From a virus: a DNA stretch of 32,124 nt. A model generated the notes under the pieces. That model made no database searches. It had not been told where the DNA came from and worked only from the letters and a program-made list of their open reading frames with translations. The DNA lies in the IMG/VR virus record IMGVR_UViG_3300037502_001902, positions 1-32,124 of that record; one strand, written 5' to 3'. A program made the position numbers and the translations under genes. Below, one piece after another: positions 4,357 through 9,353 of the stretch (positions are counted from its first letter, which is position 1; each line of letters begins with the position of its first letter).

Positions 4357-5045
4357 GTCGGCACCTTTTTGAAAGTTACTGGGATTCGTTCGTAAAGCTT
4401 TGTGGTCGGTGGCGGCGGCATGATGGATTCGGCCATTGCCGGCCGCGTGATCGGTGCGGTTATTGGACGGTACTCTATCGCGGTTCGCCGTTCCGGGCTG
4501 TCGCACTCAATCCGCACGACCGGATCAACCAACCGACCGCCAACGCAAGTTTTCTCGCCAAGCCCAATCAGCGGTCGGCAAGCTTCGGGCGATAGCCTGT
4601 CACCGATCGCCGCGTAAGCTTTGAGGAAATTATGCCGTGCCCACTTCTCGGATTCAGCGTCGTTGAACGACTCCAAGAAGTTTGGCCAGCCGCCGAGACT
4701 TCGGATCGTCGCGTTGATGCGTTGATCGGCAAAGTCGATCCACTTATAGGGCCCGGCCGGCACCGCCCGCTGAACGTCGGCCCAAGCTTCTACGGCCTTC
4801 GTGTCTTCGGCAACGTTAACGCCGGCCAGTTCCCGCAGTTCGGCAGGTCGCGGCATTCGCGGAAGCTCGCGGATGGCCCGAAGGACCGCGGCCTGCATTT
4901 GCTCCGGCTCCAGATCAATCATTGCCAAGGAGTAAACGTCCACCATCGCTTCCGTCGGCTCCACTTGGTGGGCCTGCATCAATCCCTCTAACAGCGTTGT
5001 AAAGCGCCTCAAACTTTCCTGACTCTGCGAACTTTTGGAAGACAT
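4353..5045 (-). CDS. Helicase loader-like replication protein
   Basis: The product is 230 aa from the ATG at 5043-5045, with AGGAG 10 bases upstream. Residues about 10-75 (SLRRFTTLLEGLMQAHQVEP, then VDVYSLAMIDLEPEQMQAA, then PRMPRPAELRELAG) resemble the N-terminal helical domain of G39P-type helicase loaders. In that family a helical bundle with a 'LEPExLxxAVxxxI...xFPxPAELRE' pattern binds the replicative helicase. The C-terminal half is less clear. It sits just after the replication initiator, the usual place for a loader. No phage replicative helicase is visible, so the partner would be host DnaB. The gene overlaps the end of the initiator gene by 131 bases in another frame, which is unusual. 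Confidence 0.75.
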   Translation of the reverse strand: MSSKSSQSQESLRRFTTLLEGLMQAHQVEPTEAMVDVYSLAMIDLEPEQMQAAVLRAIRELPRMPRPAELRELAGVNVAEDTKAVEAWADVQRAVPAGPYKWIDFADQRINATIRSLGGWPNFLESFNDAESEKWARHNFLKAYAAIGDRLSPEACRPLIGLGEKTCVGGRLVDPVVRIECDSPERRTAIEYRPITAPITRPAMAESIMPPPPTTKLYERIPVTFKKVPT

Positions 5046-5850
5046 TTTTTGTATTCTCCTCTCTAATCTGTGCAAACGTTTTCGGTTGCGACGGCTTACG
5101 CTCCGCCGCGACTATTCGGTCATTGCTTAACCAATCGGCCTGGAAGCCCTCCCATTGCCGCTCCGCCGCTGTTCGGATCGCCTCGTCTGCAGACATGCCA
5201 GCCTTTGCCGCCTCGCGTCGGATTCGGACTAGGACGGATTCGGTAACCGGCTTGCGTCGGCACGCGGTCCAGTCTCGCCAGTTCGTCTCGGAAATGTCAT
5301 CCGGTCGATCAATGGCAACTGATGGACGTCGCGTTCGCTTTTGAGAAAAAGAAGCAGGCGGCTCTGCCGCAACGTTCCTTTCCTGTTCCTTTCCTATTCC
5401 CTTCCCTTCCTCTTCCTTTCCCTTCCTTTCCCCACTGGGCGCGTAAGCCACGCGTTCGGCACGCGTGGGGCACGCGTCAACCACGCGTGGAATACCAACG
5501 AAATCGTTGGCTTCCGGCGGTTCTGGTAATGTGCTTTGGGCTTCCTTGAAATTAACGACCTGATGCCGTGAAAATCCGGGCACGTAGCCATATTCGACGC
5601 CTTCGGACGCGTAGCGAACGACAAATCCACGCGTGGCCAACGCGTCAAGCACGCGTGAAAAGTCAACGTTATCGTATGGTAGGATCTGTGCTTTGATCGA
5701 TCGCGGCCGCCACTTAAACCGGCCTTCGCGGTCGCAAATCGTCCACAAGCCGATGAACGCCAACCGCACCGGAAGCCCTTCCTTTTCTTCTAGGTCAAAG
5801 AGTTCTTCATGGGTGAAAAACTCCGGCTTGATTGTTCGTATTCGTCCCAT
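4915..5850 (-). CDS. Replication initiator (phage O/DnaD-like)
   Basis: The 311-aa product begins MGRIRTIKPEFFTHEELFDL, typical of phage replication proteins with an N-terminal winged-helix domain. It continues GLPVRLAFIGLWTICDREGR and FKWRPRSIKAQILPYD, through residue about 110. A low-complexity linker follows (KGKEEEGKGIGKEQ), then a C-terminal helical domain (NWRDWTACRRKPVTESVLVR, then GMSADEAIRTAAERQWEGFQ) like the DnaD/DnaT helicase-recruitment module. The protein should bind the origin and recruit loader and helicase. Two arrays of 11-bp iterons lie inside the gene, as lambda ori lies inside gene O. The ATG follows AGGA and a U5 tract that ends the structured leader at 5862-5946. Its 3' end overlaps the loader-like gene by 131 bases. 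Confidence 0.88.
   Translation of the reverse strand: MGRIRTIKPEFFTHEELFDLEEKEGLPVRLAFIGLWTICDREGRFKWRPRSIKAQILPYDNVDFSRVLDALATRGFVVRYASEGVEYGYVPGFSRHQVVNFKEAQSTLPEPPEANDFVGIPRVVDACPTRAERVAYAPSGERKGKEEEGKGIGKEQERNVAAEPPASFSQKRTRRPSVAIDRPDDISETNWRDWTACRRKPVTESVLVRIRREAAKAGMSADEAIRTAAERQWEGFQADWLSNDRIVAAERKPSQPKTFAQIREENTKNVFQKFAESGKFEALYNAVRGIDAGPPSGADGSDGGRLLLGND
5375..5434. repeat. Homopyrimidine/homopurine tract inside the initiator gene
   Basis: About 60 bases are almost only C and T on the plus strand, with TTCCTTTCC-type units repeated and only a few interruptions. On the coding strand it specifies the Lys/Glu/Gly linker of the initiator. It ends two bases before the first iteron array. 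Such tracts can form triplex DNA or unwind under stress, so an origin role is possible. Codon demand of a K/E/G linker alone could also produce it. Confidence 0.6.
5437..5491. repeat. Iteron array 1: five 11-bp units around ACGCGT
   Basis: ACGCGT occurs at 5450, 5461, 5472 and 5483, spaced exactly 11 bp. A one-mismatch copy (GCGCGT) lies at 5439 in the same phase. The unit reads S(C)ACGCGT plus three variable bases on the plus strand. An 11-bp repeat puts each palindrome on the same face of the helix. The array lies in the initiator gene, in the stretch coding for the linker. Together with array 2 it is the best candidate for the replication origin. Confidence 0.75.
5605..5659. repeat. Iteron array 2: five 11-bp units around ACGCGT
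   Basis: ACGCGT occurs at 5607, 5629, 5640 and 5651. The missing phase position at 5618 holds a degenerate unit (ACGACA). So this is again five 11-bp units, the same size as array 1, starting 168 bp away. It lies in the initiator gene where the N-terminal domain is encoded (VDFSRVLDALATRGFVV). Protein coding alone does not explain an 11-bp period. Confidence 0.72.
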
Positions 5851-5861
5851 CGTTTAATCCT

Positions 5862-5925
5862 AAAAAGCCGTCCCCTAGGCGCGTGCTAGGCGGCGCAAGA
5901 TTTGCGCAGAAACCTAGGGGACGGC
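5862..5925 (-). terminator. Intrinsic terminator/attenuator in leader 1
   Basis: A perfect 13-bp G/C-rich stem (5867-5879 with 5913-5925) is followed on the minus strand by TTTTT. It stands between its own promoter and the initiator start codon, so it should attenuate the initiator and also stop read-through from the methyltransferase gene upstream. Confidence 0.7.
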
Positions 5926-5946
5926 GTGGATTGTTAGCCTAGCACG
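5862..5946 (-). ncRNA. Structured leader RNA 1: pseudoknot plus terminator before the initiator gene
   Basis: Reading the minus strand from the predicted start (about 5952), the order is as follows. The C' strand is CGTGCTAGGC (5946-5937), followed by an A/C-rich 11-base linker. The A' strand is GCCGTCCCCTAGG (5925-5913). Hairpin B is GCGCAA-ATC-TTGCGC (5907-5893). The C strand is GCCTAGCACG (5891-5882). The A strand is CCTAGGGGACGGC (5879-5867), then five U (5866-5862). C' pairs with C over 10 bp and A' pairs with A over 13 bp. The two helices interleave, so they form a pseudoknot or two alternative states. Helix A plus U5 is a textbook terminator 11 bases before the ATG at 5850. The same layout recurs at 9228-9315. 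Confidence 0.72.
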
Positions 5947-5958
5947 GCTATTTCGTAC

Positions 5959-5987
5959 ACTATAGCAATCTGTCAACCACTTGGCAA
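5959..5987 (-). promoter_or_regulatory. Sigma70-type promoter for leader 1 and the initiator
   Basis: The minus strand carries TTGCCA (5982-5987), a 17-bp spacer and TATAGT (5959-5964), 10 of 12 consensus positions. Transcription would start near 5952, so the leader begins within a few bases of the outer pseudoknot strand. It overlaps the start of the gap after the methyltransferase gene (stop at 5995). Confidence 0.65.
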
Positions 5988-7027: not shown

Positions 7028-7864
7028 TTAGCCTCTCTTGCTTAGGTTGATAACAATTTTTGTAAAGTCTGCGATAGGAAGGTGAGCAGTCTTTCGCATC
7101 TGCCCGCGCTTCCACATTTCATAAGCTGACCACGCTTGGCCGCAAATGTTAATCAGGTTGTCATAGCCTGCCGTTCTTCCTTCGGCTCTCCTAACTTCAA
7201 TATTTCGAGCCAAAGACTCAATGCCATCGTATCCGCTTGATGACTTTACCCCCTCGTTGTTCTCAAGCTTTGTAAAGAACTCACAGGCCTTATCAGCCCC
7301 GTCGTATCGGATTGCCGTAAGCATTACCGAGATTAAAATTGTGTACCTCGACGATAACGCCATCTTGTCTAATTCGACAAGCTCCTTTTTCCATTCCTTA
7401 ACCATCGGGTAAACATCACCTGTAAACCTTTTGCCAGTTGTCGCAATCTTCAACTGAGTAGCGAACTCACATCTTCTAAGCAAATAGGAATCAAGCTTGA
7501 ATCCCATTTCGCGGCAAGCTCCGAAGATGTTATCGGATGGCTTTTTTGACACAGACTGAGCGTCCATCATGTCGTAAATTTGTTTAGCTTCTGCTATGCC
7601 AGAAACCTCAAAGATAACGACTTCAACCTTTCCGTCTGGAGGCGTTTGCAAGTCGCCCTCCTTCCATAGAAGTGCTCTTGTGTGTCCGTCAATCTTGCAA
7701 AGTATTGACCCATCTTTTGACGCAGCAAAGACAACACGATGCGGCTTTTCGTACCTTGAAAGGTGCTTTCGTCGTGCTATTTTCGCCCGTTTTTCGGTAT
7801 CTCGCTGCCGCGGGTTATCTGGAACGTCAATCCAGTCATTAACACTCATTATCATGTAAGCCAT
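7028..7864 (-). CDS. ParB/sulfiredoxin-fold domain protein
   Basis: The 278-aa protein has, near residues 35-65, HRVVFAASKDGSILCKIDGH then TRALLWKEGD. 'IDGHTRALLW' corresponds to the GxxR box of the ParB N-terminal fold. Before it lies the 'DNPRQRDTEKRAKIARR' segment that such proteins use for ligand or DNA contacts. The remaining 200 residues are helical and have no classic ParB HTH that I can see. ParB-fold proteins can bind CTP or act as nucleases; the exact role is unknown. It sits between the helicase and the methyltransferase and overlaps the helicase by 13 bases, so the three are one transcript. An alternative ATG at 7855 overlaps the helicase stop (ATGA). Confidence 0.8.
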   Translation of the reverse strand: MAYMIMSVNDWIDVPDNPRQRDTEKRAKIARRKHLSRYEKPHRVVFAASKDGSILCKIDGHTRALLWKEGDLQTPPDGKVEVVIFEVSGIAEAKQIYDMMDAQSVSKKPSDNIFGACREMGFKLDSYLLRRCEFATQLKIATTGKRFTGDVYPMVKEWKKELVELDKMALSSRYTILISVMLTAIRYDGADKACEFFTKLENNEGVKSSSGYDGIESLARNIEVRRAEGRTAGYDNLINICGQAWSAYEMWKRGQMRKTAHLPIADFTKIVINLSKRG

Positions 7865-9216
7865 TTTGGTAATACCTCTTTTTGTGGGAAACTATCCTGC
7901 GAAACCAATCTCATCGAATCGTTCATATGAGCGACAAGCTCATTAAACATCTTTTCTGTCTGCAGTCGCTTGCGTTGCAAGTTCTGCAAAATCGACGACT
8001 CTCCCTCGCTGCAAACGATTGAAACCGTAACAGCGTTTTTTTGCCCAAACCGATAACACCTCCTTACAAGCTGATAGTATTGTTCGAAAGAATGCGTAGG
8101 AAACGCGACAACGTTAGAGCAGTGTTGCCAGTTTAACCCCCAAGCCCCGATAACCGGCTTGGTGATTAGTCGCTTGATCTGCCCAGTAGAAAACGCGGTC
8201 AACGCTTCCTCTTTCGCATCGTCGGACATTGAACCCGACACCTCAACGCTATCGGGAACAATCTTTCGTAATAGCTCACCTTCCGGGTTCAGTCCGCACC
8301 ACAACACCGTAGGACCGTCGCAATCGGTTGCGATTTCGCAAGCCTTTTCGCAACGTTCTTCGAGTGTGCGGCGTCGCTCTTCTCGCTCTTCCCGCATGTC
8401 CCTTGCCGGCAAGCTAAACAAAAAACCATCGCGAAGCTTATTCGCCTCGACTACGATTTGCCTCTCGATTAACTCAGGAAGTACAAACCGCGAAGCGTCA
8501 AAGCCTAGATCAGACGGCATGCGGCAAGCCCTAGCCCACGAGCAAACCCACGACCAGAACGGCTTTTCGGCGTGGCCACGAAAACGGTACTTTGTGCGGC
8601 CCCAACCGTGATGATCCTTTGACGTTTCTTGCTTAAAAAACTTGGTGATCATGTCGCGAAAGCCAAGCAATCCAAGAGCCTCCGAGGATGTCCCAAGCTC
8701 CCAAAAGTCGTTTGGTGACGGAGTGGCTGTACAAAGTAGGCGGTACTGAATCGTCCGCATAAACTCGACGACAACGCCTTTTCGCTCGCTTTTGAAGTCC
8801 TTGATCGCTGACGACTCATCGGCGACAACGCCAGCAAAATCAGCCGGATTTAGCTTGCTCAATTGTTCGTAATTCGTCACCCAAATACATTTCGAACCGT
8901 CGAAAAATCCGTCCCGCGATCGTTTGGCTTCAATGCCAAAGCGTTCTGCCTCTGCGATCGTTTGAGCACCAACGGCAAGCGGAGTCACAATCAAGACCGG
9001 CTTATTATGACGCTGGATGATCGCGTCGCCCCAAGCTAATTGCATTGCTGTCTTTCCCATGCCGCAATCGGCGAAGATCGCACCGCGACCAATCGCAAGC
9101 GACCACTCGACTAAATATCGCTGAAAGTCGTAAAGCCAATCAGGAAGTCTATCGGCCTTAAATCCGCACCCTGCCGACCACTGCGACTTTGATCGGATGA
9201 ACTCTTCGTAATCCAT
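7852..9216 (-). CDS. SNF2/SF2-type DNA helicase-translocase
   Basis: The product is 454 aa from the ATG at 9214-9216. Superfamily 2 motifs appear in order. Q-like region: LYDFQRYLVEWSL. Motif I: IFADCGMGKTAMQL, residues about 47-60. Motif II: GVVADESSAIKDF. Motif III: LLCTATPSPND. Motif V/VI: QHCSNVVAFPTHSFEQYYQL then VRRCYRFGQ. The 'RCYRFGQ' motif VI and 'DESSAIK' motif II are typical of SNF2-like phage helicases. It should use ATP to move on duplex DNA in replication or recombination. The longer upstream frame runs through the structured leader at 9228-9315, so I reject it. The ribosome binding site is weak (GGTG), which suggests control by the leader. Confidence 0.93.
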   Translation of the reverse strand: MDYEEFIRSKSQWSAGCGFKADRLPDWLYDFQRYLVEWSLAIGRGAIFADCGMGKTAMQLAWGDAIIQRHNKPVLIVTPLAVGAQTIAEAERFGIEAKRSRDGFFDGSKCIWVTNYEQLSKLNPADFAGVVADESSAIKDFKSERKGVVVEFMRTIQYRLLCTATPSPNDFWELGTSSEALGLLGFRDMITKFFKQETSKDHHGWGRTKYRFRGHAEKPFWSWVCSWARACRMPSDLGFDASRFVLPELIERQIVVEANKLRDGFLFSLPARDMREEREERRRTLEERCEKACEIATDCDGPTVLWCGLNPEGELLRKIVPDSVEVSGSMSDDAKEEALTAFSTGQIKRLITKPVIGAWGLNWQHCSNVVAFPTHSFEQYYQLVRRCYRFGQKNAVTVSIVCSEGESSILQNLQRKRLQTEKMFNELVAHMNDSMRLVSQDSFPQKEVLPKWLT

Positions 9217-9227
9217 TAGATAACACC

Positions 9228-9291
9228 AAAAATCCACCGGCGGCGCGGCGTAGCGGGCCAGCCTGAATAGGCACAGAGGCACCGCCGGTGG
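9228..9291 (-). terminator. Intrinsic terminator/attenuator in leader 2
   Basis: A perfect 10-bp stem (9234-9243 with 9282-9291) is followed on the minus strand by ATTTTT, upstream of the helicase start. The loop is long (38 bases) and holds hairpin B and the C strand of the interleaved helix. Confidence 0.62.
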
Positions 9292-9315
9292 TTGTGTTGT
9301 TGTGAGCCCGCTACG
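9228..9315 (-). ncRNA. Structured leader RNA 2: pseudoknot plus terminator before the helicase gene
   Basis: On the minus strand the order matches leader 1. C' is CGTAGCGGGC (9315-9306), followed by an A/C-rich 14-base linker. A' is CCACCGGCGG (9291-9282). A small hairpin follows, GCCT-ATTC-AGGC (9272-9261). C is GCCCGCTACG (9258-9249), followed by a 5-base junction. A is CCGCCGGTGG (9243-9234), then A and five U (9232-9228). The outer helix is again 10 bp and shares CGT....GGC with leader 1, but its middle four bases differ and still pair. That is compensatory change, and it supports the fold. The helicase ATG follows 11 bases after the U tract. Confidence 0.7.
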
Positions 9316-9325
9316 GCTTGTCAAA

Positions 9326-9353
9326 ATCTTACCGCATCGTCAACCGCTGACAA
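9326..9353 (-). promoter_or_regulatory. Putative promoter for leader 2 and the helicase
   Basis: The minus strand has TTGTCA (9348-9353), a 16-bp spacer and TAAGAT (9326-9331), 9 of 12 consensus positions. A start near 9319 would put the outer pseudoknot strand at the very 5' end of the RNA, as in leader 1. The promoter lies over the last codons of the 60-aa gene. Confidence 0.5.

Follow-up and report, generated by a model that had tools for sequence, protein, structure and literature searches.

Does the RNA that precedes a phage helicase gene form a selected fold, and what would such a fold control? The question is raised by a 32,124-base contig of an uncultured virus, which we analyzed over its whole length (the window) and on which the larger reading frames examined all lie on the minus strand. 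The first-pass annotation of this DNA had described, upstream of the helicase gene, a promoter-proximal leader (leader 2) that repeats with other letters the layout of a leader found elsewhere in the window (leader 1).

Two leaders in one genome share a crossed-helix layout

Direct reading of the sequence confirmed leader 2 (9315-9228, minus strand), including the order of its parts. A consensus scan located its promoter, with a -35 hexamer TTGTCA (9348-9353) that is conserved in the relatives L084-L097 and a -10 hexamer TAAGAT (9326-9331). The RNA is predicted to start around 9319-9318, i.e., 2 to 4 nt ahead of helix A. The leader begins with the 10-nt 5' strand of helix A, CGTAGCGGGC (9306-9315), followed by a 14-nt A/C-rich linker, TCACAACAACACAA (9292-9305), and the 13-nt 5' strand of helix B, CCACCGGCGGTGC (9279-9291). 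Then come a pyrimidine-rich spacer CTCTGT and a hairpin GCCT-ATTC-AGGC (together 9261-9278, the hairpin itself at 9272-9261), the 3' strand of helix A (A'), GCCCGCTACG (9249-9258), a CC junction between 9249 and 9246, and the 3' strand of helix B (B'), GCGCCGCCGGTGG (9234-9246), both 3' strands being recovered by a layout search as well as by direct reading. A U5 tract lies one base (A) past helix B (9228-9232), and the sequence continues with GGTG and the ATG (9216-9214) of the helicase gene (7852-9216, minus strand; phrog_62, E value of 1e-53).

Leader 1 (5946-5862, minus strand), also read directly, precedes a replication-initiator gene (4915-5850, minus strand, with its ATG at 5850-5848; phrog_16167, E value of 5e-45). 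The hexamers TTGCCA (-35; 5982-5987) and TATAGT (-10; 5959-5964), found by consensus scan, are followed by the helix A strand CGTGCTAGGC (5937-5946), an 11-nt A/C-rich linker, TAACAATCCAC (5926-5936), the helix B strand GCCGTCCCCTAGG (5913-5925), a spacer TTTCT with the hairpin GCGCAA-ATC-TTGCGC (5893-5912, from the layout search), A', GCCTAGCACG (5882-5891), B', CCTAGGGGACGGC (5867-5879), and a U5 tract that abuts helix B (5862-5866). All four helix strands were obtained by both the layout search and direct reading. Within the initiator gene, repeated CACGCGTGG-type units at 5439-5658 are iteron-like and resemble the iterons of replication origins.

The order is the same in both leaders: A, A/C-rich linker, B, pyrimidine spacer, hairpin, A', 2 nt, B', U5, an 11-nt stretch that contains the ribosome-binding site, and the ATG. 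As had been claimed, each leader has an A helix of exactly 10 bp, the two sharing CGT....GGC and differing in the middle four bases with pairing kept; helix B measures 13 bp in both and includes one G-U pair in leader 2. The geometry had to be corrected, however. Helix A had been described as an outer helix, but B' lies outside A'. Since A' is placed between B and B', helices A and B cross in a pseudoknot layout, and no outer helix surrounds the terminator. Each leader is an 80-base RNA with two long crossing helices at the predicted start of a replication-gene transcript.

A sequence-blind search for this layout over the window returned exactly two elements, leaders 1 and 2, with scores of 70.1 and 71.8. 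The best score in 240 Markov shuffles of the window was 62.9, and none reached 65. In 3.8 Mb of related loci, a search requiring a T tract yielded some 20 to 25 distinct elements above the best shuffled score.

Both helices are maintained by compensatory change

Loci were gathered by using the helicase, the initiator, further initiators met on the way, and the leader 2 strands as queries. The searches relied on strong pairing and on genes neighboring the window as starting points, and the list of types was curated by hand from their output. About 22 sequence types carry the layout, all from uncultured phages: the window pair, L083, L090, L346, L016, L005, L008, L249, L237, L162, L243, L010, L045, L007, L035, L046, L066, L057, L075, L031, and L156, with L106 as a weaker candidate.

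Across 20 curated types, A pairs with its own A' at 213 of 221 positions (96%) and B with its own B' at 276 of 277 (99.6%), compared to 43.5% (A) and 48.4% (B) when partner strands were swapped between types; these types had been picked for pairing, so that the contrast between own and swapped strands counts, not the absolute percentages. In a MAFFT alignment of 16 rows, all five covariation measures exceeded those of all 500 shuffles, and the covariation score was 0.456, versus 0.106 to 0.223 with slid structures. In this alignment, 4 of the 16 rows are one register off in helix A, as are several in helix B, and pair percentages calculated on it are therefore understated. A chance arrangement or a feature acting at the level of DNA is next to negligible as an explanation: it is at odds with the shuffles, contradicted by the covariation, and disfavored by the count of 36 G-U pairs versus a single A-C mismatch, the search itself favoring G-U. 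We found no point that speaks for it.

The same pattern was seen between close relatives. In the slot of leader 1, the window, L083, and L090 have a promoter in common. Over 120 bases, the initiator gene of L083 has 93% identity to that of the window, but the leaders of the two are only about 60% identical, scarcely more than shuffled sequence (50%, with a maximum of 57%). Between L083 and L090, the promoters are 92% identical and the leaders differ by paired double changes, from G-C to A-U in helix A and from A-U to G-C, C-G to U-A, and C-G to A-U in helix B. The initiators of L090-L097 differ from that of the window in their N-terminal part and are related to it in their C-terminal part, a domain exchange behind the same promoter. 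Leader 2 was found in 39 locus records, some of which overlap on one contig, and in 12 versions; the records were retrieved with A and B fixed, and only the remaining parts are informative. Here, the hairpin stem varies with pairing kept (GCCT/AGGC, GCTC/GAGC, and TCCC/GGGA), the linker varies within A/C/T, and U5 and GGTGT are constant.

Leaders 1 and 2 alone, from which compensatory change had originally been claimed, do not prove it, because their common descent is not shown; the comparison with other phages bears the claim out. The covariation across phages also supports the proposal of a selected, promoter-proximal RNA fold ahead of two replication genes, the phrog_62 helicase and the phrog_16167 initiator. 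The first-pass annotation had further held that loss of either helix in phages keeping the genes would speak against such a fold. Every related phage in which the leader was found has both helices, a result that is partly circular since the searches demanded both, and in phages whose helicase no longer opens an operon, the whole leader is absent. The A-B-A'-B' order together with compensatory change conserving both helices makes the element a candidate pseudoknot.

Databases returned no counterpart. With Rfam 15 at gathering score, the only hit in the window and 21 related loci was one tRNA in L010, away from the element, and relaxing the threshold for the two leaders produced nothing beyond miRNA, lncRNA, and xrRNA scores at the level of chance. 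Self-cleaving ribozymes (HDV-like, pistol) were considered and rejected. In HDV-like folds, the P4 hairpin sits between the two 3' strands; such a hairpin is absent here, and no Rfam ribozyme model matched. Ten annotated phages with a related helicase or initiator contained no clear member, giving chance-level matches and a weak one in Mycobacterium phage Guppsters. The latter (L322, position 8436) is a crossed-helix candidate in the gap between the major tail and tail assembly chaperone genes and is probably unrelated. The initiator search of bacterial genomes gave just two distant relatives, and the element was seen in neither. On the basis of Rfam 15 and the open-access papers searched, the element is undescribed. 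We conclude that, very probably, the leader is genuine and acts as a hitherto undescribed control element of early phage genes.

The element belongs to operon starts

Wherever a promoter is recognizable, A starts 6 to 13 nt past the -10 hexamer, and the fold probably starts about 0 to 6 nt from the RNA 5' end. B' is 15 to 27 nt from the start codon in 19 of 20 types. In L346, the promoter has been replaced, yet leader 2 is unchanged and similarly placed.

An operator-like palindrome lies on both -35 boxes of the window (9337-9353 and 5971-5987, minus strand; TTGTCAACnGTTGACAA in relatives). The copy spanning the -35 hexamer of leader 2 is imperfect and reads TTGTCAGCGGTTGACGA (TTGTCAACGGTTGACAA in relatives); L346 has it replaced and leader 2 kept. 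This arrangement suggests that one phage repressor may control both leader promoters.

The closest helicase relatives (about 74% identity, L002-L010) have no such leader before the helicase. In L005, L007, L008, L009, and L010, the element lies at a more downstream site and precedes other genes, replication initiators among them. Overall, the first genes behind the element encode initiators of several families, the helicase, HNH proteins, a recombinase-like protein, and proteins of unknown function. Given such unlike first genes, the element belongs to the operon start and not to one gene. The idea that the pair controls replication genes specifically consequently found no support, and the location at early operon starts, with two elements per genome here, argues for control at the level of the operon.

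A U-tract is a common but not universal partner of helix B

A GC-rich hairpin with a U-tract lies between promoter and first gene in both window copies, and a U-tract follows B' in about 17 of the 22 types. In a search without T requirement, TTTT or longer was found 0 to 2 nt from B' in about 15 of 20 types, compared to a background of 1.75% of random positions. Five types have intact helices but just 2 to 3 T after B' (L162/L009, L243, L245/L010, L007, and L045). Termination is thus a common, not a universal, partner of the fold and cannot be its whole function.

These data bear on whether the leader is in fact a small RNA gene, whose transcripts would end at the U-tract to give a stable RNA of 85 to 90 nt acting in trans, with the downstream gene expressed by read-through like IsrK of Gifsy-1. 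The strong hairpin and U5 of most types and the IsrK precedent (PMC4825925) are compatible with this, but the helix letters vary almost freely, so that no target sequence is conserved, and five types lack a U-tract; we consider it very unlikely. The related suggestion that the leaders act in trans as decoys was not supported either: the middle four bases of helix A bar full pairing between A of leader 1 and A' of leader 2, or the reverse.

The U-poor types back the main rival, a post-transcriptional 5'-end element. Here, the pseudoknot, standing shortly before the start codon and with A beginning close to +1, would hide the RNA 5' end and either protect the mRNA from 5'-end-dependent decay or present the ribosome-binding site. 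We give this reading a rather low probability. It agrees with the fixed place near the RNA start in types with a visible promoter, with the narrow range of distances from B' to the start codon given above, and with the retention of the helices where the U-tract is lost, but it leaves the strong U-tract enrichment unexplained. In leader 2, conservation extends to the 3' end of the linker (AACAC) and to the GGTGTT that follows, two stretches able to pair with each other, which would fit a role at the ribosome-binding site. A third helix of this kind, attractive in the window, was rejected as a family feature since it is not family-wide and 52 of 300 swaps reach it.

Folding was then considered in the order in which the RNA would emerge. 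For RNA up to A' only, with B' still in the polymerase, the predicted probability of A:A' was 1.00 in all but one of the 19 types, where it was 0.81. When B' was added, nested folding, calculated with a program that does not fold pseudoknots, preferred B:B'. Helix energies were estimated at about -18 to -28 kcal/mol for A and -25 to -38 kcal/mol for B, and a joint pseudoknot of A and B would be energetically favorable. The A'-B' junction is 0 to 8 nt long, mostly 0 to 2, and the linkers of the 20 curated types are 84% A+C. Such a short junction and an unpaired linker would suit a continuous stack of hairpin, A, and B, in which the RNA 5' end would lie where A meets B.

We favor, with a probability of about 0.45, a cis-acting leader of the attenuator type, which would fold cotranscriptionally and set the passage of polymerase from the early promoter into the operon. 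Transcriptional control is preferred because the layout is found at operon starts whatever the gene and because the U-tract is strongly enriched. Transcription would begin about 0 to 6 nt ahead of A, as judged from the promoters. A is predicted to pair with A' once the latter emerges, so that the loop encloses B and the hairpin. B' would then emerge beside the finished A helix and pair with the looped-out B to form a crossed, possibly coaxially stacked, pseudoknot; the pairing of A and of B is established by covariation, and both helices would form simultaneously. In most members, B:B' abuts a U-tract and thus also looks like an intrinsic terminator hairpin, placed immediately ahead of the ribosome-binding site, and termination may occur there. 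The maintenance of both helices by compensatory change across about 22 types, the leader retained in L346 despite its swapped promoter, and the presence of other hairpin and U-tract leaders before the same kinds of genes in the related phages L021, L259, and L183 support the attenuator reading; the five types with intact helices and just 2 to 3 T speak against it.

Some loci carry leaders of other builds. Upstream of the initiator or helicase, L259/L260 and L021 have a terminator-like hairpin whose loop is complementary to an upstream strand (CTACCAG/CTGGTAG; GTAGAAG/CTTCTAC), which gives the same A-B-A'-B' topology. Just upstream of the initiator, L172, L180, and L181 have a different structured leader, a hairpin GTAGG-TCTCTCACCTT-CCTAC; its loop CACCTT could base pair with AAGGTG, the ribosome-binding site. 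In L120, L127, and L128, a long structured leader upstream of the initiator ends with CACCCACC..GGTGGGTGTTTT before the start codon. Rfam scans of L172, L180, and L120 gave no match.

Comparison with known leader RNAs

Intrinsic-terminator attenuators resemble the leaders in having a promoter-proximal GC-rich hairpin and a U-tract ahead of the start codon. In contrast to them, the terminator helix B has no strand in common with helix A, the A/A' and B/B' strands being separate throughout the curated types. This speaks against a classical either/or attenuator, and the helices cross without excluding each other by sequence.

The nascent putL and putR RNAs of HK022 are about 70 nt long, belong to early phage transcripts, occur twice per genome, and act in cis, with putL just past the promoter (PMC9378689). 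Number per genome, location near a promoter, early transcripts, and the proposed action in cis are points of likeness. However, the put RNAs share their sequence and two noncrossing stem-loops, whereas here the helices cross, their letters vary freely, and types share little helix sequence; we set the two apart on these features, without base-by-base comparison, and antitermination is known for put only.

As a further explanation, the element may serve an RNA-binding protein of the phage or of the host as an operator, in an autogenous or put-like manner; it would be read through spacer and loop on a variable scaffold. Judged by eye and with no statistical test, most types have a run of pyrimidines (YTCT, for example) separating B from the hairpin, and the hairpin loop reads AUUC, ACUC, AAUC, or AUCU in most cases. 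These letters recur while the helices vary, and two elements of about 75 to 80 nt at early promoters resemble the putL/putR arrangement (PMC9378689). Nevertheless, the reading lacks a candidate protein, the loop follows its consensus only loosely (with deviations in L046, L066, L075, and L007), and the variety of first genes speaks against simple autoregulation, making such an operator unlikely. In the attenuator-type leader that we prefer, the recurring spacer and loop would be the likely contact points for a factor.

The pseudoknot of T4 gene 32 mRNA, which binds gp32, lies 67 nt upstream of the start codon of one gene (PMC3014915). In both cases, a phage replication gene has a pseudoknot in its leader, but the present fold is 15 to 27 nt upstream, near the RNA start, and before many unlike genes (helicase, initiators, HNH, and others) instead of the gene of its own single-stranded-DNA-binding protein. 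P4 CI RNA and IsrK-type prophage leader RNAs pair antisense in trans (PMC4825925). They are likewise short leader RNAs that tie replication or early-gene control to premature termination or read-through, but here all pairing partners lie inside one 80-nt RNA. The HK022, T4, and P4/IsrK systems follow a similar logic, but membership in each fails on at least one tested feature or would be putative at best.

Finally, the ESAS of Cluster K mycobacteriophages consist of 17-bp repeats that have a consensus in common and are associated with a 13-bp sequence (PMC3203893). Like the leaders, they place inverted repeats just upstream of the start codons of several genes, and mycobacteriophages carry a distantly homologous helicase. 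Here, in contrast, there is no shared sequence, the helices cross, and the 13-bp sequence GGGATAGGAGCCC was seen by eye in neither leader.

The leaders might also represent an undescribed class of phage leader, with a 5'-terminal crossed-helix fold, free helix sequence, and semiconserved spacer and loop. It would be a common start module of early operons that RNA polymerase or some other general factor recognizes, allowing early RNA to be marked or metered without a phage protein; we consider this broader idea doubtful. Conserved, structured leaders are well known for bacterial genes, but few have been described for early phage operons. Should the element govern how replication operons are entered, many uncultured phages would possess a compact switch that tolerates sequence change, and the presence of two copies in a genome would allow a natural test of whether a pseudoknot can time or meter phage replication genes.
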